53,401 nucleotides of DNA from Cellvibrio mixtus subsp. mixtus J3-8 (GTDB lineage: Bacteria > Pseudomonadota > Gammaproteobacteria > Pseudomonadales > Cellvibrionaceae), in the NCBI RefSeq assembly GCF_000766945.1, contig NZ_KN266215.1, positions 79,754-133,154 of the forward strand, read 5' to 3'. Of this stretch, positions 12,999 to 23,633 are shown piece after piece. Under the pieces are notes generated by a model. That model made no database searches. It had not been told where the DNA came from and saw only the letters and a program-made list of their open reading frames with translations. Positions within the stretch are counted from its first letter, which is position 1, and each line of letters opens with the position of its first letter. The position numbers and the translations under genes were made by a program.

Positions 12999-13814
12999 TT
13001 ACGGCTTTGGCGATTTGGCCCTGAGCTTGCGCCAGAAAAATCGCAAGATAAAAAATAAAATTATAAAAATAATCAACCAGGGAATCAGGTAGGCCGTAAT
13101 AGTAATTGCACCGGCAATGCCCTCAGCGAAATTAGTTTTGAACTCATCCAGTGCAGTGGTAATAGGTTGCCAGAAAGAGTTTTCACTACGGCTGGATAAT
13201 CGGATATTAATAATATCCATTTCTACACGTTGCATTAGCGCTTTGTTATTTCCGCTTAAATCCTCCAATTGCGATTGTGTGTTGGCAATTTCTTGTGAAA
13301 CCTTAATAAGCGATTCGATATCACCCTTTGCTTGCTTTTGCAGATCCAGCAAATTTTCCTGATAGGATTGCAATAACTTGATGCGTTTTTCCGTATCGAA
13401 AATCTGTGTTGAAAGATCCTCTACTACTGTGGATTCGTTGGTAATTTCACTGTCAGTACCTGCAAGTGCGAGAAACTTCTCCACACCTGCCGGTTTGATT
13501 CGCACCCGGATTTTGCCGTAGCTATAGTTACCCGCCGAAAGCTCGGATTCCAGGATAGTACAGTTGTTATCCCTGTCGGCAGCACAATAATCTGTCAACA
13601 CTTTATACCTTGCGTCAAGTGCTTCCTTGGCCAGCTCTACACTTAAATTATGTTCGTAGGAAAGGTAGGGGTTAGTTTGGCGTTGTGCAATCAAGCCAGC
13701 TTTCATCATGGCGGTTGGGCTTTCCACGGCTTTATTGTCGCTGTTGTATTCACAGCCGCTCAGGCTGAAAGCTAAAAGCAGGCAGGTCAAACCTGAAATG
13801 ATTAATTTACGCAT
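12999..13814 (-). CDS. DUF4349 lipoprotein with C-terminal membrane anchor
   Basis: A 271-residue envelope protein. An N-terminal signal has a lipobox ending at C21 (SLSGC). A middle alpha/beta part (YGKIRVRIKPAGVEKFLAL...STVVEDLSTQ) is followed by a coiled coil at about 140-200 (DTEKRIKLLQSYQENLLDLQ...LEDLSGNNKAL). Near the C-terminus one strong transmembrane helix (ITAYLIPWLIIFIILFFILRFF) precedes a basic tail. This layout is that of DUF4349 proteins, whose function is unknown. It is convergent with the alpha-E gene and lies downstream of the lipid-biosynthesis operon on the same strand, 206 bp away. Confidence 0.8.
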   Translation of the reverse strand: MRKLIISGLTCLLLAFSLSGCEYNSDNKAVESPTAMMKAGLIAQRQTNPYLSYEHNLSVELAKEALDARYKVLTDYCAADRDNNCTILESELSAGNYSYGKIRVRIKPAGVEKFLALAGTDSEITNESTVVEDLSTQIFDTEKRIKLLQSYQENLLDLQKQAKGDIESLIKVSQEIANTQSQLEDLSGNNKALMQRVEMDIINIRLSSRSENSFWQPITTALDEFKTNFAEGIAGAITITAYLIPWLIIFIILFFILRFFWRKLRAKSPKP

Positions 13815-14020
13815 AGTCCAGATTAAATCCTTGATGAGTACCAGAGGGGAAAATACATTTGTCGGGTGTATTCGAGTTTAATAGTAGTACAGTAGGCTTT
13901 ATGGGTGCTGAATAAGGTTGGGTTACATTCGCTTTTAAGCCTGCAGTAAATGGCCGAAGACTGAAGAATATGAGCGAGAATCAGGCGGTGCTGCGCTCGC
14001 TTGCAGGAAAACAACCAGGG

Positions 14021-15607
14021 CTACAGAGAATTGTAACGTCCTGGCGAAATAACATTATTAGGGTCAAAAATGGATTTTAATTGGCGAGTGATCGGGTAGA
14101 GAGATTGATTGGTAGTAAAAATTTTATCCATATTACCAATATCAATCCGGTAAGGGGGAAAGCCGGCAGCGATAAAGTTATCCAGAATAGTACTGATAAA
14201 GCGATGGGCAGAATCCCTTGATGCATCCACAGATTTTATAAAGTCGATACTGATAACACATTCCAATACACAACCGCGCAAGGTGTTCATTGTTACCGCC
14301 GGTTGGACCGCAAACTCCTTTGCATGTTGTTCAATTATTTTTAACGCTGTATTAATCGCGGTTGCATTCATTGGTAATATTGGAGCGCAAAAATAAATCC
14401 CGTTATCGCTGTTATCAGGGGTAAGCCATTTTTCTTCAGTGTCGCGTGTGGGCCAATAAATGCTGCGTAGCATTTCGTCGGTTGGTATACCCCGGGTAAG
14501 CCCGATTAATGGTTTTATGGCTTGCAAGAACCAGGTTTTCCGGTGGAGCGATAACCACTTGGCAATGGATGATAATAATAAATATTTTTTTTCATCCATA
14601 AAGGATACTTTTGCAGTTTTACCCAGTGTCCTTTTCAGGATTTTTTGCGTGAGTCTAACCTGCTCTTTGGTTCCCATAATTGATCCGACGGCGGACCATG
14701 TTCCCTGGGACTCTTCCCGCACCACTTTTTCCACTACTTCCCTGGGCTGAAGCGCATTGTCATTCTTAAGCTGGTTGAAAATAATCGGCGTAAGGGATAT
14801 ATCCCTGCGGCGCTCATTGCCAATATGGACTACGCAGCTTAACGTTTTTGCATCAAATAATTCCCGCAAATATTCAACCAGTTGTGTTAATTCGTTCCGG
14901 GTGTTCACACTGGCAATAAACGCCGTGTGGGATTCCTGTTTCGGCTGCAATTTGACACAAGCGGAAATACATATACCGAAATTGGATTGTAAAAATAAAC
15001 CCAGCATATCCGGGCCAATACCATAAGGATATAAATTAGCAACCTTAAATGCGGAGTCAAATCCAGTGGTGATGGTATCTCCGTTCCCTAAAACTACATC
15101 CATCGTGATCAATGTTTCAACGCGCAAGGAATTATAAGCTGTGCCGCGCTCAAGGGTATTACCGATAATACTTGTGTCCCGCCCTGAGCCAGTTACATCA
15201 ATAAAAAAGGGCGCGTTAATATTAATCAGCGCTTGCGCTAATTGCGCCTGGGTTACTCCTGGCTCGACACACGCGTAACCAAATTCAGTGTTAATCTCCA
15301 AAACCTTGTTCATTGCATGCATATCCAATAACACACAATGGTCGGTGACAGGCGTGCGCGAACCTAATCCCCAATTTTTTCCAGTGCTTACAGGATAAAG
15401 TGCAATTTTATAAAAGTTGGCGAGGCGGACAATGGCAACTATCTGGTGCGGGTTGGTAACCTTAATTACCGCCTGTAATTTGCGTAACAAACCCAATGTA
15501 TTTTGTTGAAACGATACCAGTGCATCACCTTGCACAATAACCGGTGAGTCGTTGATATCTTGAACAGCAGTAATAAAAAGCTGGATACTATTTGCGACTG
15601 TATTCAT
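14021..15607 (-). CDS. FAD-dependent oxidase of the vanillyl-alcohol oxidase/4-cresol dehydrogenase type
   Basis: A 528-residue flavoenzyme. The FAD pyrophosphate loop YPVSTGKNWGLGSRTP lies at about 77-92, followed by a typical LDMHAMNKVLEI and, further on, ERGTAYNSLRVETLITMDVVLGNGD. These segments resemble vanillyl-alcohol oxidase, eugenol oxidase and 4-cresol dehydrogenase, which oxidise para-substituted phenols through a quinone methide. The C-terminal part (MNTLRGCVLECVISIDF, NNVISPGRY) fits the same family. It is the last gene of the acyl-ACP operon and starts directly at the stop of the acyltransferase gene (TAAATG), so translation is coupled. A tyrosine-derived acyl amide is an attractive but unproven substrate. 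Confidence 0.82.
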   Translation of the reverse strand: MNTVANSIQLFITAVQDINDSPVIVQGDALVSFQQNTLGLLRKLQAVIKVTNPHQIVAIVRLANFYKIALYPVSTGKNWGLGSRTPVTDHCVLLDMHAMNKVLEINTEFGYACVEPGVTQAQLAQALININAPFFIDVTGSGRDTSIIGNTLERGTAYNSLRVETLITMDVVLGNGDTITTGFDSAFKVANLYPYGIGPDMLGLFLQSNFGICISACVKLQPKQESHTAFIASVNTRNELTQLVEYLRELFDAKTLSCVVHIGNERRRDISLTPIIFNQLKNDNALQPREVVEKVVREESQGTWSAVGSIMGTKEQVRLTQKILKRTLGKTAKVSFMDEKKYLLLSSIAKWLSLHRKTWFLQAIKPLIGLTRGIPTDEMLRSIYWPTRDTEEKWLTPDNSDNGIYFCAPILPMNATAINTALKIIEQHAKEFAVQPAVTMNTLRGCVLECVISIDFIKSVDASRDSAHRFISTILDNFIAAGFPPYRIDIGNMDKIFTTNQSLYPITRQLKSIFDPNNVISPGRYNSL

Positions 15608-16219
15608 TTAAATTAATTCAGCTTGGGATAGTTCAGGAACCAGCAGATCCTGTTCAGACAATAAATGCTTAACATCTTCATCCAATTGCTCCCATGCCGA
15701 TGCGCATCCATAGCGTAAATTAACAATTGCAGGCATTACTTCGTAGTGCTTATCAATACCTTCCACCAGGACACGTGGAATATTTTCCATCCATTCCACA
15801 TCCATAATGAGTTCAACAAAGACTTTATTTTCAAATAAGCTGACGTTATTAATAAATCCCAGTTTTATTCCTGTCAAAAAAGTGAGGTAGGTAATCAATG
15901 CCCACAAATTATGGCGGCTGCGATAATCACGGTGAATCATCCCGCGCGTTGAATAGTAACAATTTTTTAAATCGGATAAAGGGACGCCGGTATAAGTGGG
16001 AAAAGGCGATCGTTGTGCATCAATTCCAAACATGGAGGCCACTAATTTGTCATTGTGATAAATACAAATGTGTTGCCCATCATAATCCTCCTGGCAAATC
16101 AGTGATTCTTCTTTGAGGAACTTTTTTTCAATAGAATAAATATCTCGCCTTAATTCATATAAACCCTGTGGAATAGCGCCGGAAATTATACGTATTGAAA
16201 AATTGGTTGTATTGCTCAT
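15608..16219 (-). CDS. GNAT-fold N-acyltransferase, resembling FeeM/LuxI-type synthases
   Basis: A 203-residue protein. The ATG at 16219 is chosen because AAGGAG stands seven bases upstream; the frame continues upstream but overlaps the desaturase gene. The pattern is that of acyl-ACP-using GNAT enzymes (N-acyl amino acid synthase FeeM, acyl-homoserine-lactone synthases): LYELRRDIYSIEKKF, then QEDYDGQHICIYHNDKLVASMFGID, then STRGMIHRDYRSRHNLWALITYL and VSLFENKVF. The neighbouring dedicated ACP would supply the acyl donor. Whether the acceptor is an amino acid, an amine or SAM cannot be read from sequence. Assignment is by pattern recognition and is moderate. Confidence 0.55.
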   Translation of the reverse strand: MSNTTNFSIRIISGAIPQGLYELRRDIYSIEKKFLKEESLICQEDYDGQHICIYHNDKLVASMFGIDAQRSPFPTYTGVPLSDLKNCYYSTRGMIHRDYRSRHNLWALITYLTFLTGIKLGFINNVSLFENKVFVELIMDVEWMENIPRVLVEGIDKHYEVMPAIVNLRYGCASAWEQLDEDVKHLLSEQDLLVPELSQAELI

Positions 16220-16230
16220 TACCATTCTCC

Positions 16231-17220
16231 TTATTGCCGGGGTTTTAACGAACTTAATACAACGTGTTTTACATTCCAGACGAGTCCGATTTTCTTGCAC
16301 ACAAAAATAAAATACCAGGCGATATCCACCTGCCACCATTTAAAACCCAATTTTGCTGCGGTGGGGTAAGCATGGTGATTGTTTTGCCAGGAGGCCCCAA
16401 AGGTTGGTAATGCGCACCACATATTATTGGCGCTGTGATCTCCGGTTTCATATGGCTTACTACCATAACGATGCGCAAATGAACCATTGAGCCAGGTTGA
16501 TTGGGTCACTAAAAACATACGCACAAGGCCACCCCAGATAAATCCTGTTAATGCACCCATCCATGTCTGGGTTGCAAGTCCACCAATAACACCGGGAATA
16601 ATTAATCCAAGAATCAAAATCGGAACATACAAATCATTAATTTTTTTTAAAGTAGAATCCTGAATGAGATCTTTGGCGAAGGCACTGCTATTGGTCACTT
16701 TGTCGTTAATCATCCAGCCGAGATGTGCGTGCAACAACCCTTTTGCCAATCCAAGGTTTTCCGGATTTGCGTGGGTGTGGCGAACATGTGGTGAATGTGG
16801 ATCGAGTTCGGTATCACTATGAATGTGATGACGGCGATGAGTTGCTACCCAATAAATAACGCCGCCTTCGCCAGCCATTTGTCCAAGAATAGTTAACAGG
16901 TATTTTAAAAATGAACTTGTTTGGAAGCTTCTATGAGCCAGCAATCGATGGTATCCCATTTCGATACCAAGGTTAGTTAATATATACATTCCAATTAATA
17001 AGCCGACATTCAATGCACTCACGCCACCGTCGACAACCATTAAATAAATCGCGGCAATTACACCCAGGAAAGGTAAAACAATGGTGGCAGAAGCAAGTAT
17101 TTTTTGAGCAAATATTACGTCGGGATCATTTAACGTGACGCGCACAACACGTTTTTCCCGTGGATTTTCAAATGCTGTTTCCGGTACGGATTGAATTGGA
17201 TCAGATAGTTTTGTGTTCAT
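16231..17220 (-). CDS. Membrane fatty-acid desaturase with an altered third His box
   Basis: A 329-residue di-iron desaturase of the acyl-CoA/Delta-9 type, with four to five hydrophobic helices. His boxes are H91-x4-H96 (HRLLAH) and H128-x2-HH (THRRHH). The third box is Q279-NN-H282-H283: the first His, a metal ligand in stearoyl-CoA desaturase, is Gln (codon caa). The usual NSxCH segment is also changed to NGSFAH (245-250). The sister desaturase in this operon keeps both. Either the metal site is modified, as might occur in an acetylenase or hydroxylase variant, or activity is lost. Located between the ACP and acyltransferase genes. Confidence 0.9.
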
Positions 17221-17248
17221 TACACTTCCCCAGGATTTTGCTTTCCTA

Positions 17249-17515
17249 TTAGTGGTTCCGGGCTACATATTCAGCCAGGGATTTAATCGAATTGTGCGTT
17301 CTGAGCACTTTCACCCCGAGGGGAACTCCCGACCATGCAGCCAAATCGGAAATTAATCCGACAGCAGAAGAAGAATCCAAACCCAAATTTTGCAATGGAA
17401 CATCAGAAACTATGTCTGCTTTATTAAAATCCAATACATTCTCAATATAATCGTACAGCCAATTCTGAATCGCTTCGGCTCCAGGTGCAGGGGTATCAAT
17501 TAGCAAATCACTCAT
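17249..17515 (-). CDS. Dedicated acyl carrier protein
   Basis: An 88-residue carrier protein with the phosphopantetheine site [11 protein letters not shown], where S48 follows D47. It is unlike the housekeeping AcpP, with bulky residues ([24 protein letters not shown]), which is typical of standalone ACPs of secondary metabolism. It sits between the two desaturase genes downstream of a fatty-acyl-AMP ligase. The order ligase, desaturase, ACP resembles JamA-JamB-JamC, where the ligase loads a fatty acid on the ACP and the desaturase works on the ACP-bound chain. Confidence 0.88.
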
Positions 17516-17551
17516 AGAATTTTCCTTTTGAACGATAAAAATTAATGACAG

Positions 17552-18508
17552 TTATTTAACACGTTTTACATTGCTAACAAGGCCAATGGATTCCATTAGC
17601 ACTATTGATAAATATCCAATATCCAGTTGATACCAGCGCAACCCAAAACGCGCCGAATATGGAAAGGCGTGGTGGTTGTTATGCCATGATTCACCGCCAG
17701 TGATGATAGATAGCCAGGCATTGTTCCGGCTGCCATCCATTGTTTTATAGCGTTGATGGCCGGTTAAATGGCAAATTGAATTAACACTGCTGGTGGCATG
17801 GAACGATAAAAACAATCTCGCCATGCTGCCCCATAGAAATGCCATGATGGCTGCAGATAACGTTCCTTCAATTGCTCCTGCGATTGCTGGTGGTAGTAAA
17901 ATGCCCAGTGCTACCCAAAAAAAATAGTGCCGTCCCACTGACATAACCGTTTTATCTTTCAGGATATCTTTGGCATAACGCGCGCTATTGGTTAAATCGT
18001 GATTAAACATCCAGCCAAAATGGCTGTGAAAAAATCCTTGCCAATGTGTGAGGTTTTTTTCCTGGTTGTAATGTGGTGAATGCGGATCCAATGGTTTATC
18101 ACTAAATTGGTGATGGCGACGATGATTGCTGACCCAATAAACTGGTGAGCCTTGCGCCGCCATACAACCGAATACCGTGAGTAGTGCACGAATACTATTG
18201 GATGTGGTAAAACTTCGGTGTGCGAGCATGCGATGAAAGCCAACCGTAATGCCCAATACCATGGTCATGAAATAAAATACCAAAAACAGGATGAATGTCA
18301 GGTTGCTAAATCCGTAAACAGGAATTAATGCACAAGCGACAATAAAACCAATAAATGGTAAAACGATAATGGCTGTTGCATGGATTTTTTGAAATACATC
18401 CAGTCCATGGTTCTTTATCACATAACTGGATATGTATTTGTTCCCATCATCCATAGTGGTGATATTTGCAAGCGAATTATCTGCTGGTATTGCCGTATCG
18501 TTTAACAT
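17552..18508 (-). CDS. Membrane fatty-acid desaturase (canonical His boxes)
   Basis: A 318-residue di-iron desaturase. It has all expected histidines: H92-x4-H97 (HRMLAH), H129-x2-H132-H133 (NHRRHH), the NSICH segment (243-247) and H276-NN-H279-H280 (WHNNHH). Hydrophobic helices surround these boxes as in Delta-9 acyl-CoA desaturases. Its start overlaps the end of the acyl-AMP ligase gene by 7 bp, so the two are translationally coupled. By analogy with JamB-type enzymes it probably desaturates, or desaturates twice, the ACP-bound chain; position and product are unknown. Confidence 0.92.
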   Translation of the reverse strand: MLNDTAIPADNSLANITTMDDGNKYISSYVIKNHGLDVFQKIHATAIIVLPFIGFIVACALIPVYGFSNLTFILFLVFYFMTMVLGITVGFHRMLAHRSFTTSNSIRALLTVFGCMAAQGSPVYWVSNHRRHHQFSDKPLDPHSPHYNQEKNLTHWQGFFHSHFGWMFNHDLTNSARYAKDILKDKTVMSVGRHYFFWVALGILLPPAIAGAIEGTLSAAIMAFLWGSMARLFLSFHATSSVNSICHLTGHQRYKTMDGSRNNAWLSIITGGESWHNNHHAFPYSARFGLRWYQLDIGYLSIVLMESIGLVSNVKRVK

Positions 18509-20313
18509 AAGCCCTTTTCCTGTTCAGGTATTACCCGGACGTTGGCATTACAGGAAACAGAAAAATAATGTAATTGTCCTGTAAGATATTTTTGTTTGCA
18601 TAATGTCCTGCTAATTTTTCCACTTGTCGTGCGTGGTATGGTGGCTGGTTTTACCCACAATATTGCATCCAGGTGAAGACCATGTTCATCGTGCAATTCA
18701 TTCTGGATTTTTATTGTTGTGAGGTCTGTATTGAAGGTGCGAACCCAGCGCTTTTCAACTTCCTGGACCGCGATAATTCGCTCCGTTCCTTGATTGTTCC
18801 ATGAAAAAACGGCGCAACCATCGAGGCATAATTCACTTGCTGATGTGCTTATCGTTTGCTCCAGATCCTGCGGATAATAATTTTTTCCGCGAACGATAAT
18901 AATATCTTTCAGGCGGCCGGTAATAAAAAGCTGGCCACCACTTAAGGTTCCCAAATCTCCTGTTCGAAAATACTGCTGGTCTATATTGCCGTTAACAATA
19001 TGTTGCTTAAAAAATTTGGAGTTAACATCGCTTTTATTGAAGTAACCAGTAGAGATACTTTTGCCTTTTAGCCAGATTTCGCCAACAGTGTCGGCAGCGC
19101 ACTCAATGGATGTATCAGGATCAATAATTTTTATAGTGAGGCCATCTGCTGCATATCCATTTCCTACTAATGCCTGGTAATTCACATCGCCAACATTGTT
19201 ATCGCGGGCCATCCATTCAAACCGATTCGCGGCCAGTGCACTTTTATTGACATAGCGAATGTCCGGTTCTGTACAAGGCTTCCCACCACTGATTAATAAC
19301 GTTGCCTCGGCCATACCATACACCGGAAACATGGCAGTACGGGAAAATCCGCAGTCGCGAAATTTGGAAGAAAATGTGTCAATAGTTGTTGCTTTAACAG
19401 GTTCGGCACCGTTATAGGCGATAGTCCAGCTGCTTAAATCCAGCGATGCAAATTGTTCTTTTGTAATACGCTTTACGCACAGGTCGTAACCAAAATTGGG
19501 TGCCCCGGTTGTGGTGACTTTGTATTTGGATATTGCGTTTAACCAACGAGCCGGTTTTTCGATAAAAGTCAACGGGCTCATAAAGTAACAGGGGATTCCC
19601 AAATATAACGGCTGTAAAATATTTCCGACCAATCCCATGTCATGGAATAACGGTAACCACGAAGCAAATACAGTGTTTTTATTGTGCTGGAATACTTCCG
19701 CAATCATGTGTTGGTTGGCTAATAAATTTTCATGGCTGATCACAACCCCTTTAGGGGAACCTGTTGAACCTGATGTATATTGGAGGAAAGCAGCATTTTG
19801 TGGTGCTAAAACAGGTAGTGACGTTTGTTGCAGTGGTACAGTTTGTAATAAATTTTCAATCGCGATCCAGGGTATTTTTTTTAGCGATTGGGCGCTATTT
19901 AATCCGGTATCATCAACGCGATTTTCATATTTATTTTTGATGGTGCGGGAGGTAATAAGTAGTTCTGAGTCGCTATCTTTTGCAATAGCGTAAAGGCGAT
20001 TTCTTTTTTGTGATCCTTCAGGTGGATAGGCTGGTATAGCAACCATCCCCGCGTAAAGGCATCCCATAAATGCCTGGATAAATTCAATCCCTGATGGTAA
20101 TGCTAGAATAATTCTGGACTGGAATGGAAGGTAACTTAATGCCCACGCAATTTTTCGTGCTGAAAAATCCAGCTCACCGAACGTAACGGATGATTGCTCA
20201 ACACCGTCTTTTTCTAAAAATGTGAATGCAAGGGAAAATGGTTGTGACCTTGCGTGCAGGTCAAGGTATTCAGTGATATTCCCTGGCGTATCAATCCTGT
20301 ATTCAACAGCCAT
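18502..20313 (-). CDS. Fatty-acyl-AMP ligase (FAAL)
   Basis: A 603-residue adenylate-forming enzyme, the first gene of the operon. It activates a fatty acid as acyl-AMP for transfer to a carrier protein. The ATP-binding loop YTSGSTGSPKGV is at 179-190. FAAL/Cyc2-type landmarks follow: ASWLPLFHDMGLVGN, YFMSPLTFIEKPARWL, YNGAEPV, FPVYGMAEATL, EIWLKGKSISTGYF and FRTGDLG..GRLKDIIIVRGKNYYPQD. The C-terminal domain with PRTTSGKISR carries the catalytic Lys region. The family (acyl-ACP loading rather than CoA ligation) is inferred from these motifs and the adjacent ACP. A 447-bp AT-rich promoter region lies upstream. Confidence 0.92.
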   Translation of the reverse strand: MAVEYRIDTPGNITEYLDLHARSQPFSLAFTFLEKDGVEQSSVTFGELDFSARKIAWALSYLPFQSRIILALPSGIEFIQAFMGCLYAGMVAIPAYPPEGSQKRNRLYAIAKDSDSELLITSRTIKNKYENRVDDTGLNSAQSLKKIPWIAIENLLQTVPLQQTSLPVLAPQNAAFLQYTSGSTGSPKGVVISHENLLANQHMIAEVFQHNKNTVFASWLPLFHDMGLVGNILQPLYLGIPCYFMSPLTFIEKPARWLNAISKYKVTTTGAPNFGYDLCVKRITKEQFASLDLSSWTIAYNGAEPVKATTIDTFSSKFRDCGFSRTAMFPVYGMAEATLLISGGKPCTEPDIRYVNKSALAANRFEWMARDNNVGDVNYQALVGNGYAADGLTIKIIDPDTSIECAADTVGEIWLKGKSISTGYFNKSDVNSKFFKQHIVNGNIDQQYFRTGDLGTLSGGQLFITGRLKDIIIVRGKNYYPQDLEQTISTSASELCLDGCAVFSWNNQGTERIIAVQEVEKRWVRTFNTDLTTIKIQNELHDEHGLHLDAILWVKPATIPRTTSGKISRTLCKQKYLTGQLHYFSVSCNANVRVIPEQEKGLC

Positions 20314-20760
20314 AAATTATCCTTATGTCTGTGGTGGTAGATGTGTTTTAACGAGCATCCACAACCCTGGTTAGGAAAAAATCCTGGTGATCATATTTTT
20401 ATGTTGGAAAAAGTAAATAGCTGGAATTAGTTTTTTATGATTTTTTGCAATGCAATTCCAATTTATTTTTTATTGATACCAGGCAAAGGCATCTTAATAC
20501 GCAGGATTTATTGCGGCTTTGTGAACATGGTATTTTAATTGTTATTTTTTATGCCAAAATGTTAACGAATTTATTTTTATGATTATGGCGACAATTGACT
20601 ATTATTATTTTTAAAAATCAACAGTCTTTTGGCAGATAGGTTTTCATTATTTTTAATGGCGTTTTTCATTGAGGATAGTCACACGCGTGTTAATCATTGA
20701 TCTGTTCATGTTTTAAATGACTATTTTATTTCAAAGTAGATCAGTAAAACCCCTAATCAA
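20314..20760. other. AT-rich intergenic region upstream of the FAAL operon
   Basis: 447 bp with no convincing gene on either strand. It is visibly richer in A+T than the flanking genes, with many T- and A-runs. It must hold the FAAL operon promoter, and the flavin reductase gene ends at its right edge. No clear -35/-10 pair, lux box or terminator was identified by eye. Confidence 0.5.
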
Positions 20761-21330
20761 TTATTCTGAAGGACTATCAGGGACATGAAATGCGTCACCG
20801 GTCGCATAGAATTCTCCACCCGCCATGTAATGAATACTCCGCTTTTGCGGATCATCAGAAAAACTCCAGCGACCATTGAGGAATTGTTCCGCATCAGCAT
20901 AAGCAGCTACAACTTCGCCAACAATTAGATCCATCTCTTCTGCACCTTGTTTGATAACTTTACATTCCAGCCACCCGATACAATCTTCAATAAAAGGCGC
21001 AGTGATTTTCGTAGCGGGAAATGTACTGATATTAAAACGAGAAAATTTATCCGCATCGCGCCCGGAAATATCGCCAACATCCAGTGTGAGCCTGGCAATT
21101 TTGCGCATGGGAAATTGCAAACCAAATTCGCCGCTTGCCTCTACTAATTCACGGGTATATGTATTTTTATCAATCACTACTGCCACTTTGGCGGGTGAAA
21201 AATCCAGCGGCATTGTCCAGGCGGCGGCCATGATATTGCGTTTTTCACCATGGGCACTGGTGATGATACTGACCGGGCCATGGTTAAATAATTTGTAACT
21301 GTCTTTTAATGGAATAGATATATGTGTCAT
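20761..21330 (-). CDS. Flavin reductase family protein
   Basis: A 189-residue FMN-binding split-barrel protein. The N-terminal strand pattern FNHGPVSIITSAHGEKRNIMAAAWTMPLDFSPAKVAVVID and the loop GRDADKFSRF are typical of NAD(P)H:flavin oxidoreductase-like proteins. Such enzymes can supply reduced flavin to a two-component monooxygenase or halogenase. It begins directly at the stop codon of the barrel-protein gene. The flavin-dependent halogenase gene, which needs free FADH2, is divergent 0.7 kb away, making a functional pair plausible but unproven. Confidence 0.8.
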   Translation of the reverse strand: MTHISIPLKDSYKLFNHGPVSIITSAHGEKRNIMAAAWTMPLDFSPAKVAVVIDKNTYTRELVEASGEFGLQFPMRKIARLTLDVGDISGRDADKFSRFNISTFPATKITAPFIEDCIGWLECKVIKQGAEEMDLIVGEVVAAYADAEQFLNGRWSFSDDPQKRSIHYMAGGEFYATGDAFHVPDSPSE

Positions 21331-21876: not shown

Positions 21877-22070
21877 TATTTTTCCTTAAGAGCGAAGGCA
21901 CAGGCAGTGAAACGCAAATCAGTATGGGTGACCATCAACATGTATTCCATCGGTTTTTAGCCATTGTGCAATAGAGAAAATTAATGGAAAGCGAATAGCT
22001 TAATGGATATGTGGCAGGCAAGCTACGGCACCTTTCGGTTTACATTAATAAATAATAAGTGGAAAACACC

Positions 22071-23633
22071 ATGAATACAGCAGTCAAACACATCGTTATT
22101 GTTGGCGGAGGCTCTGCCGGGTGGTTGGTAGCCGGAACACTCGCCGCCGAGCATGGTAATGGTGATGAAGGTGTGCAAATTACCTTGATTGAATCGCCAG
22201 ATATTAAATTGGTCGGGGTAGGTGAAGGCACCTGGCCGACCATGCGCAGCACCATCAGAAAAATGGGCATTTCAGAAACAGAATTTGTTCGTGAGTGCGA
22301 TGTTGCTTTCAAACAGGCATCCAAATTTTGCAAATGGACTACCGGTGAGGACGACGATGAGTATTACCATCCCTTTACGTTACCGGTAGGTTATCGCGAT
22401 TTGAACCTGGCTGAGTATTGGAAAGCACATCGCAACGAAATATCTTTTTCCGATGCGGTTTGTATCCAAAGCCGGATTTGCGCAAACCATATGGGACCAA
22501 AATTGATTAGCACGCCGGAATTTGAAGCTATAGCCAATTATTCCTATCATCTGGATGCAGCCAAATTTGCACAGTTCCTGCGTAAACACTGTATAGAAAA
22601 ACTGGGTGTCAAACATATTACCGATAATGTTATCGGCATCAATTCAGCAGGGAATGGTGATATCCATTCACTGGCGACCCAAAATACCGGCGAGCTTCAT
22701 GGCGATTTGTTTGTTGATTGCACCGGGCTAGCGTCAATACTGTTAGGTAAACACTACCAGGTGCCATTGGTCAGCAAAAAACAATTCTTATTTAATGATG
22801 CAGCACTTGCTGCGCAGGTTCCTTATCTGGATCCTGAGTGCCCGATTTCATCCAATACTATTTCTACTGCGCAGTCTGCCGGTTGGGTGTGGGATATTGG
22901 TTTGCAAACCCGCCGCGGTGTTGGCTATGTTTATTCGCGCACCCACATTTCCGATGAAGAAGCGGATAAGGAATTCCGCGATTATTTGACTCTGACAATT
23001 GGCCGCGAAAAAGCTGATGCAACCGAGTTCCAGAAAATTAAATTTACACCCGGGCATCGCGAAGTATTCTGGAAAAATAATTGTGTTGCTGTGGGCCTGG
23101 CAGCGGGGTTTATTGAGCCGCTGGAAGCATCCGCCATCATTTTGATTGAGCTTTCCGCGAGAATGATTAGCGAACAATTACCGGCAGATAGGGCTGCAAT
23201 GACCCTTGTGGCAAAACGGTTTAATGATGTGTTTACCTATCGCTGGAACCATATTATTAATTTCTTAAAGTTGCATTACGTATTGAGTAAGCGCACAAGC
23301 TCCCAATATTGGCTTGATCATCGTGATCCCACCAGCATCCCGCAAAGCTTGCAGGAGCTGCAAGCGTTATGGAAATACCAGGCGCCCTGGTTCTACGATG
23401 AAGTTCATTCAGAGGAATTGTTTCCGTTAGCGAGTTTCCAATACATTCTTTATGGAATGGGTTACGAAACTGCACAGCGGCCAGCCACTAAAAAAGTGAA
23501 TCCGGAAACACTTGAGCGGGCGAATGGATTTTTCAGGGCGAATCATAAAAAGACTAACGAGGTTATAAAGATCCTGCCAACGCACCGCGAAATTGTTAAC
23601 AAGATTAAACAGTACGGGCTGCAAAAAATTTAA
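22071..23633 (+). CDS. Flavin-dependent halogenase family protein (tryptophan halogenase type)
   Basis: A 520-residue flavoprotein that uses FADH2, O2 and halide to form hypohalous acid and halogenate aromatic rings. The FAD motif VGGGSAGW is at 11-18. The catalytic Lys aligns at K81 (FKQASKF, matching YKVAIKF with K79 of RebH), and the active-site Glu motif is FIEPLEAS. The WxWxIP motif is present as WVWDIG, with Gly in place of Pro. Substrate is unknown; many such genes in related bacteria are uncharacterised. A GTG at 22059 is an alternative start. The nearby flavin reductase could supply FADH2. Confidence 0.88.
   Translation: MNTAVKHIVIVGGGSAGWLVAGTLAAEHGNGDEGVQITLIESPDIKLVGVGEGTWPTMRSTIRKMGISETEFVRECDVAFKQASKFCKWTTGEDDDEYYHPFTLPVGYRDLNLAEYWKAHRNEISFSDAVCIQSRICANHMGPKLISTPEFEAIANYSYHLDAAKFAQFLRKHCIEKLGVKHITDNVIGINSAGNGDIHSLATQNTGELHGDLFVDCTGLASILLGKHYQVPLVSKKQFLFNDAALAAQVPYLDPECPISSNTISTAQSAGWVWDIGLQTRRGVGYVYSRTHISDEEADKEFRDYLTLTIGREKADATEFQKIKFTPGHREVFWKNNCVAVGLAAGFIEPLEASAIILIELSARMISEQLPADRAAMTLVAKRFNDVFTYRWNHIINFLKLHYVLSKRTSSQYWLDHRDPTSIPQSLQELQALWKYQAPWFYDEVHSEELFPLASFQYILYGMGYETAQRPATKKVNPETLERANGFFRANHKKTNEVIKILPTHREIVNKIKQYGLQKI

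Follow-up and report, generated by a model that had tools for sequence, protein, structure and literature searches.

The closest described relatives of the gene cluster considered here are precedents for one or the other of its two halves. For the first half, the jamABC genes of jamaicamide biosynthesis encode a fatty acyl-AMP ligase (FAAL), a desaturase and an acyl carrier protein (ACP), which together load an acid onto the ACP and desaturate it there (PMC11837247, PMC8406139). Polyyne clusters are defined by jamABC together with a rubredoxin, a thioesterase and two further desaturases (PMC8406139). For the second half, FeeG, encoded in a synthase cluster, oxidatively decarboxylates N-acyltyrosines to aminovinyl phenols, and the review that describes it also cites the chondrochloren enzyme, CndG (PMC8762209), an FAD-dependent oxidative decarboxylase thought to act via a quinone methide (PMC3039461). 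We analysed a stretch of 53,401 nucleotides from Cellvibrio mixtus subsp. mixtus J3-8 (contig NZ_KN266215.1, positions 79,754 to 133,154), called the window below, in which six genes on the minus strand, read from 20313 to 14021, encode a FAAL, a first desaturase (Des1), an ACP, a second desaturase (Des2), an acyltransferase and a VAO-type oxidase. On balance we favour the view that these genes form a self-contained pathway, inserted as a block, that would build an unsaturated acyl chain on the ACP, release it as an N-acyl compound and then oxidise that compound.

The six genes recur as a unit. All of them stand in the same order in two other genomes of the family, G805 and G826, which were located by searching 120 family genomes with Des1 and then examining 20 kb around their two tandem desaturase pairs; Des1 matches were found in eight of the 120 (our own included), and G805 and G826 have tandem desaturases 0.44 kb apart. 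A three-row alignment of the acyltransferase, run against 144 family genomes, gave four matches, namely our own genome, G805, G826 and a weak one in G875 (E 0.0016). G826 is very probably that of the shipworm symbiont Teredinibacter turnerae T7901, and the operon is therefore probably the ttu cluster of that species. We take the G826 locus to be, very probably, that of TtuA, TtuB and TtuC, and no Des1 match at E<=1e-35 was found in G826 outside the six-gene locus. TtuA, TtuB and TtuC were reportedly described in ACS Chemical Biology in 2015 as a terminal-alkyne trio, with TtuB said to be a two-step desaturase/acetylenase for C10 chains; to our knowledge the last three genes of the ttu locus (Des2, acyltransferase and oxidase) are uncharacterised. 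The order FAAL-desaturase-ACP of ttuABC is the same as in the window, and there too Des2, the acyltransferase and the oxidase follow, although the proteins are only 39-69% identical.

The site itself is empty elsewhere in the genus. The DUF4349 and flavin reductase genes that flank the operon lie 255, 276 and 127 bp apart in the same-genus genomes G010, G013 and G004, where the operon is absent, and blastn matches of the flanks to these operon-free genomes stop near window position 13768 and resume near 20795; in G002, also of the same genus, the gap between the two flanking genes is about 1.4 kb. This comparison covered 21 genomes including our own, of which 16 had no DUF4349 match at E<=1e-30 and were hence uninformative. 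Because so few other genomes of the family have the operon, its gain as a block in this lineage is a simpler explanation than loss in the others. The G+C content of the operon is 40-44%, and that of the surrounding windows 42-50%, except for 37-40% just upstream of the FAAL gene. Within the operon, the FAAL and Des1 genes overlap by 7 bp, the following gaps measure 36 bp (Des1-ACP), 28 bp (ACP-Des2) and 11 bp (Des2-acyltransferase), the acyltransferase and oxidase genes abut with 0 bp between them, and the acyltransferase start is the ATG at 16219, six bases downstream of AAGGAGA. The FAAL, membrane desaturase and ACP genes are contiguous, as in a JamABC/TtuABC-type alkyne cassette, and the best NCBIfam matches of the FAAL are fatty-acid--AMP ligase and NRPS/PKS (nonribosomal peptide synthetase/polyketide synthase) loading models, under their full-length cut-offs. 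The original prediction, made from the DNA letters, had described six closely spaced genes on one strand and had recognised the FAAL-desaturase-ACP logic; the former is confirmed, with the repeated order and the empty site in three same-genus genomes speaking against chance, and the latter is supported. Coordinates are collected in Table 1.

Table 1. The six operon genes and the putatively inserted stretch around them. Positions are those of the window; identities are to the sister-operon copies in G805/G826.
Feature	Position	Strand	Identity (%)	Evidence
FAAL, 603 aa, TtuA-like	18502..20313	-	42/40	Pfam AMP-binding
Des1, 318 aa, TtuB-like	17552..18508	-	52/51	FA_desaturase; His boxes HRMLAH, HRRHH, HNNHH; clade with sister Des1 99/93
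ACP, 88 aa, TtuC-like	17249..17515	-	44/45	PP-binding 1.7e-9; GLDSS attachment site
Des2, 329 aa	16231..17220	-	69/68	FA_desaturase; third His box QNNHH; clade with sister Des2 100/100
Acyltransferase, 203 aa, diverged, putatively of the N-acyl amino acid synthase (NAS)/acyl-homoserine lactone (AHL) synthase superfamily	15608..16219	-	48/48	hhalign with controls; Foldseek search with a low-confidence model
VAO-type FAD oxidase, 528 aa	14021..15607	-	39/39	FAD_binding_4; PDB matches p-cresol methylhydroxylase (PCMH), EUGO, VAO; Leu81, Tyr486-Arg487; trees
Inserted stretch, ends approximate	13768..20795	.		Flanks nearly contiguous in G010, G013, G004

As we read it from the protein families, the pathway would run in four steps. 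The FAAL would activate a medium-chain fatty acid as the acyl-AMP and load it onto the ACP, where Des1 and Des2 would dehydrogenate the acyl chain; our confidence is strong for the loading and for desaturation on the ACP, and moderate for a triple bond. Des1 probably produces a terminal alkene or alkyne, as its probable ortholog TtuB reportedly does, and Des2 would add further unsaturation. With moderate confidence, the acyltransferase would then take the acyl group off the ACP and attach it to the amino group of an amino acid or of a similar amine, freeing an N-acyl compound, and, with similar confidence, the oxidase would act on the amine side by hydride transfer to FAD, probably giving an enamide or dehydroamino acid, with or without loss of CO2 and with a side chain that may or may not be phenolic.

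The desaturases were placed in a 41-row tree built without two long-branch rows (polyyne D3 and L037). Each forms a clade with its sister-operon copies. A branch with 100/100 support separates both, along with the FAAL/ACP-linked and polyyne desaturases, from 24 of the 27 ordinary desaturases; the other three ordinary sequences sit on the Des1/Des2 side of that branch, and L067b, second of the Polaromonas desaturases, groups with the ordinary ones. A first tree, with polyyne D3 and L037 in and the sister operons out, gave a similar split (96/89), in which L033 changed sides. The third histidine box of Des2, QNNHH, is shared by its orthologs and by one of two polyyne desaturases examined and occurs in none of the 27 ordinary ones; as a mere guess, it may mark acetylene formation. 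A reading that we regard as somewhat unlikely is that the N-acyl amide produced has a diene of ordinary double bonds in place of an alkyne, the cassette resembling the FAAL-desaturase-ACP sets found in Thalassospira, Polaromonas and actinobacteria. It draws on the identities of the two desaturases, which are 37-42% with non-polyyne FAAL-linked desaturases and just 34-37% with polyyne D1/D2, on the methyltransferase, P450 or other genes that those sets carry, and on the lack of a rubredoxin or thioesterase among the six genes, but the orthology to the probable ttu locus, whose TtuB is reportedly a desaturase/acetylenase, speaks against it, as does the distribution of the QNNHH box. Bacterial polyyne clusters likewise hold a FAAL, an ACP and several desaturases (the Streptomyces sp. 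Mg1 plasmid locus L078 was taken as one by gene content); the operon is not a member, with just one further desaturase and, by domain search, neither rubredoxin, thioesterase nor third desaturase among its six genes. Three other loci were set aside as comparable cassettes: the Burkholderia arboris FAAL locus L080, in which a desaturase homologue was not found; Planktothrix L081, in which no desaturase is annotated; and the tandem desaturases of G399 (L069), which have no FAAL or ACP match alongside on a contig that begins 2.4 kb upstream.

To place the acyltransferase we relied on profile-profile comparison. Against a synthase-superfamily profile built from exosortase-type acyltransferases, FeeM-family open reading frames (ORFs) and oxidase-linked ones, the window acyltransferase alone scored 26.9 over 174 columns in hhalign, and all single-sequence controls scored lower, namely 60 of 60 shuffles (maximum 19.7) and, among further ORFs of similar length, 79 of 79 (maximum 17.6), an 80th control ORF being a true synthase that was set aside. 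The three-sequence profile scored 30.8 (34.2 with roles swapped), with 60 of 60 column shuffles at or below 19.5. A Foldseek search with the three-sequence model (mean pLDDT 53) gave 598 PDB matches, and the 50 of them listed look GNAT-like by title, if one counts in an arginyltransferase that we presume to belong there; a fold from the single sequence was discarded (pLDDT 34). With moderate confidence we therefore regard the protein as a probable diverged acyl-ACP acyltransferase of the NAS/AHL synthase superfamily. Sequence searches of 56 other genomes, 397 other genomes and plasmids found no relatives, none of 52 pattern stretches in the genome contig collection was confirmed as one, and the sister copies were reached only via the Des1 search of the family. 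Elsewhere in the same genome there are two FeeM-family matches (G000:C1:165168-165647 and C6:93247-93555), neither of which adjoins the oxidase paralogue mentioned below.

Membership in this superfamily also invites two other readings of the operon. It is improbable, in our estimate, that an AHL-synthase-like acyltransferase here makes a diffusible acyl signal. Among the Foldseek matches listed, the AHL synthase RpaI does rank first and BjaI fourth, fifth, eighth and 15th, and related plasmid modules of a GNAT gene and an oxidase gene lie close to LuxR genes, but the fold matches are under significance, plain acetyltransferases rank second and third and FeeM appears at 23 (and again at 28 and 37), and none of the six genes encodes a regulator. 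OlsB-kind acyl-ACP acyltransferases belong to the same superfamily, and a related synthase (L024) matches an ornithine N-acyltransferase model at 2e-5, far under its cut-off, both of which count for a membrane aminolipid modification operon of the ornithine-lipid kind; we consider this very improbable, as the operon's own FAAL and ACP, an acyltransferase that is clear in just 3 of 144 family genomes and an otherwise-empty insertion site fit a specialised metabolite better, and for the fixed membrane-lipid operon that the original prediction had named as its counter-case we found little support.

The oxidase, with its FAD_binding_4 domain and its homology to PCMH and vanillyl-type oxidases, its best solved relatives, belongs to the VAO/PCMH family. 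We scanned the genome contig collection with a three-sequence alignment and kept the best 80 of 408 relatives. In a 44-row tree, with rows selected from 105, the window oxidase groups with the sister oxidases (98/93) inside a 15-row clade (100/100) that is separate from six PCMH/VAO-like proteins (100/100), and a quick 103-row tree agrees, placing the clade apart from 14 such proteins (SH-aLRT 100). A paralogue in the same genome (C6, L030), 23% identical and lying, by eye, beside a dapE-like peptidase gene, was uninformative. Many of the relatives share a type of neighbourhood: 49 of the best 80 have a synthase-superfamily frame at E<=0.01 no more than 3 kb from the oxidase, and 41 have one within 1.5 kb at the stricter E<=0.001; once the 13 loci used to train the profile are removed, 35 of 67 have one within 1.5 kb (E<=0.01), and the density of such frames within 1.5 kb of the oxidase is 14-15 times that elsewhere in the loci. 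None of the 14 PCMH/VAO-like control loci has a synthase frame, although 11 of these have just ~1.5 kb of flank per side. In the class search, G192 and G140 gave the best oxidase matches, and both of these adjoin FeeM-family genes. Within the 15-row clade, the three operons have the window-type acyltransferase, and L115, L116, L117, L120 and L138 have a synthase-superfamily partner, which in L115 (9164-11512, from a Bacteroidia genome) is fused to the oxidase in one 782-aa frame whose FeeM-like N-terminal domain scores 23.8 bits, under Pfam's 27. The remaining partners are an XrtA-type FemAB protein (L122), Acetyltransf_3-kind GNATs (L062, L063) and an unassigned, weakly scoring protein (L118); no partner was found in L112, and L113 and L114 lie too close to a contig end to tell. 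A chance juxtaposition of the acyltransferase with an unrelated, catabolic phenol oxidase, as the best solved relatives of the oxidase might suggest, is hardly credible in the face of the oxidase's separation from PCMH/VAO-like proteins in both trees, the synthase frames near so many relatives, the fusion and the adjacency to the acyltransferase in all three operons.

Two further sets of oxidase loci came to light in these searches. The modules on one Vibrio nigripulchritudo plasmid and two Providencia plasmids (L062 7829-11493, L063 8110-11586 and L068 8023-11499) combine a GNAT gene with genes for a VAO-type oxidase and for a protein of the acyl-CoA dehydrogenase family (HsaA-like in L062), and a LuxR gene lies nearby; the L062 and L063 oxidases fall in the window clade, and oxidase matches occur in 90 plasmid records, 27 of them from Providencia. 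In acidobacterial loci, for example L142, L155, L162 and L168, a gene of ~280 aa with a LRGRVYLKDGAI-like motif and weak synthase-superfamily kinship stands directly before the oxidase, and the acidobacterial-type gene of L124 has no Pfam match.

Several observations weigh against a self-contained pathway of the kind we favour. At E<=0.001 neither Pfam nor NCBIfam matches the acyltransferase; at E<=10 the only match is an irrelevant one to DUF2110_C (0.029, under its cut-off), and none to PF21926, the FeeM family, is listed. Its absolute hhalign probability is only 16-58%, its comparisons with lone subset profiles are not significant (probability 1.7 for the exosortase-type, 1.2 for the acidobacterial and 0.1-0.2 for four smaller subsets), the mean pLDDT of 53 given above is low, and Foldseek returned no match at E<=0.001, the best, to RpaI, having an E of 1.5e-3. 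Among the 80 oxidase relatives, 31 have no synthase frame within 3 kb, some of them on short contigs, and matches to FAAL, desaturase and ACP are absent from their loci except for a weak AMP-binding match in L164 (with six-frame noise filtered and contigs limited in length). Orthology to the experimentally tested TtuABC, FeeG and CndG is inferred. The active site of the oxidase also departs from that of its solved relatives. In PCMH, Tyr95, Tyr473 and Arg474 hold the phenol; their counterparts in the window oxidase are Leu81, Tyr486 and Arg487, so that one of the three phenol-site residues is changed. Beyond the best 80 relatives, L026 (Phe), L027 and L064 (both Leu) also lack the tyrosine, and because these lie outside the window-oxidase clade, the replacement is not a mark of that clade alone.

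The lost tyrosine bears directly on what the product might be. Among the best 80 relatives, the residue corresponding to Tyr95 is Leu, Met or Phe in nine, all of them inside the window-oxidase clade; the exceptions to this pattern are L153, which has Asn and lies outside the clade, and L138, which has Tyr and lies inside. Since the residue is Leu here and Met in the oxidases of both sister operons, a tyrosine-derived product is doubtful. A quinone methide of the chondrochloren kind requires a para-phenol, so the change leaves two readings: other residues may hold the phenol, or the enzyme may act on a substrate without one. We tentatively put forward, as possible, that the product is an alkynyl-acyl enamide, a natural product of a new type, in which a terminal-alkyne acid built on the ACP is joined to an amine by an acyltransferase family outside Pfam and oxidised by a branch of VAO-type enzymes. 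This branch, whose members mostly have Leu, Met or Phe in place of the one phenol-site tyrosine, would act on N-acyl amines that lack a phenol and would occur in several phyla alongside differing acyltransferase partners. Of the original prediction, the unsaturated fatty amide thus survives as an inferred N-acyl product, possibly an enamide, and the guess of tyrosine or tyramine becomes doubtful. Its "phenol-type" oxidase is right as to fold family but not as to one phenol-site residue, and its "GNAT", FeeM-type acyltransferase gains the profile-profile comparison and a weak model, while domain searches confirmed no such relationship and, assigning no family, spoke neither for nor against the acyl-ACP GNAT families.

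In jamaicamide biosynthesis, the acid goes on to polyketide synthase/nonribosomal peptide synthetase machinery, whereas here a second desaturase and a stand-alone acyltransferase come next. The fee cluster, with the synthase FeeM and with FeeG, and the chondrochloren system with CndG likewise have an enzyme dedicated to oxidising an acylated amino acid; unlike them, the operon has an oxidase in which one phenol-site tyrosine is replaced, and its acyl chain would come from a desaturase cassette. Thalassotalic acid and stieleriacine clusters also yield oxidised N-acyltyrosines from an NAS, and for their N-acyl dehydrotyrosines a nitroreductase and a ThiF protein have been proposed (PMC12479983), not a VAO-type enzyme; with no nitroreductase or ThiF-family gene among the six, the operon is not of that type. 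The earlier statement that no described cluster combines such genes with an oxidase does not stand, given FeeG, which decarboxylates N-acyltyrosines (PMC8762209), and the same six genes in G826. Among the papers listed in the literature searched, where subscription journals are mostly absent, we found no study of the six-gene cluster, which is no proof that there is none, and in the main text of a survey of shipworm-symbiont clusters the words 'alkyne' and 'desaturase' do not occur (PMC7329324).

The surroundings of the operon offer a few observations of their own. A tryptophan-halogenase-family protein (22059-23633, plus strand) and the flavin reductase (20761-21330, minus strand) are encoded beside it. 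A halogenase and a flavin reductase are reportedly parts of the chondrochloren pathway; as members of the present one they are unsupported, as the flavin reductase gene adjoins the DUF4349 gene in operon-free genomes, and in G010 (L203) blastn finds the flavin reductase followed by the first ~430 bp of the halogenase, with the operon absent. In the Teredinibacter-like genome (L225 15825-18071), a weakly tyrosine recombinase-like gene and a gene with SMC-like coiled-coil matches lie from ~2.2 kb past the operon. Elsewhere in the Cellvibrio genome (G000, contigs C1, C5, C13, C20 and C27) there are 25 AMP-binding matches, many in frames of 1,100-6,556 aa, which probably encode large synthetases.

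The operon is thus real and complete, and better supported than the original prediction could show, but less singular, being probably the ttu cluster, with precedents for its two halves. As a whole it appears new as far as the literature searched shows, in that an alkyne-type cassette, an acyltransferase of its own and an odd branch of flavin oxidases form a conserved unit in three genomes. We know of no native product of a ttu-type alkyne cassette. The reading favoured here would tie such a cassette to a plausible route of release and tailoring, so that click chemistry could serve in a direct search for the product. The VAO-type branch, whose members are labelled merely FAD-binding or FAD-dependent in plasmid records, often stands beside NAS-like genes in several phyla, which offers many unnamed genes a function that can be tested.

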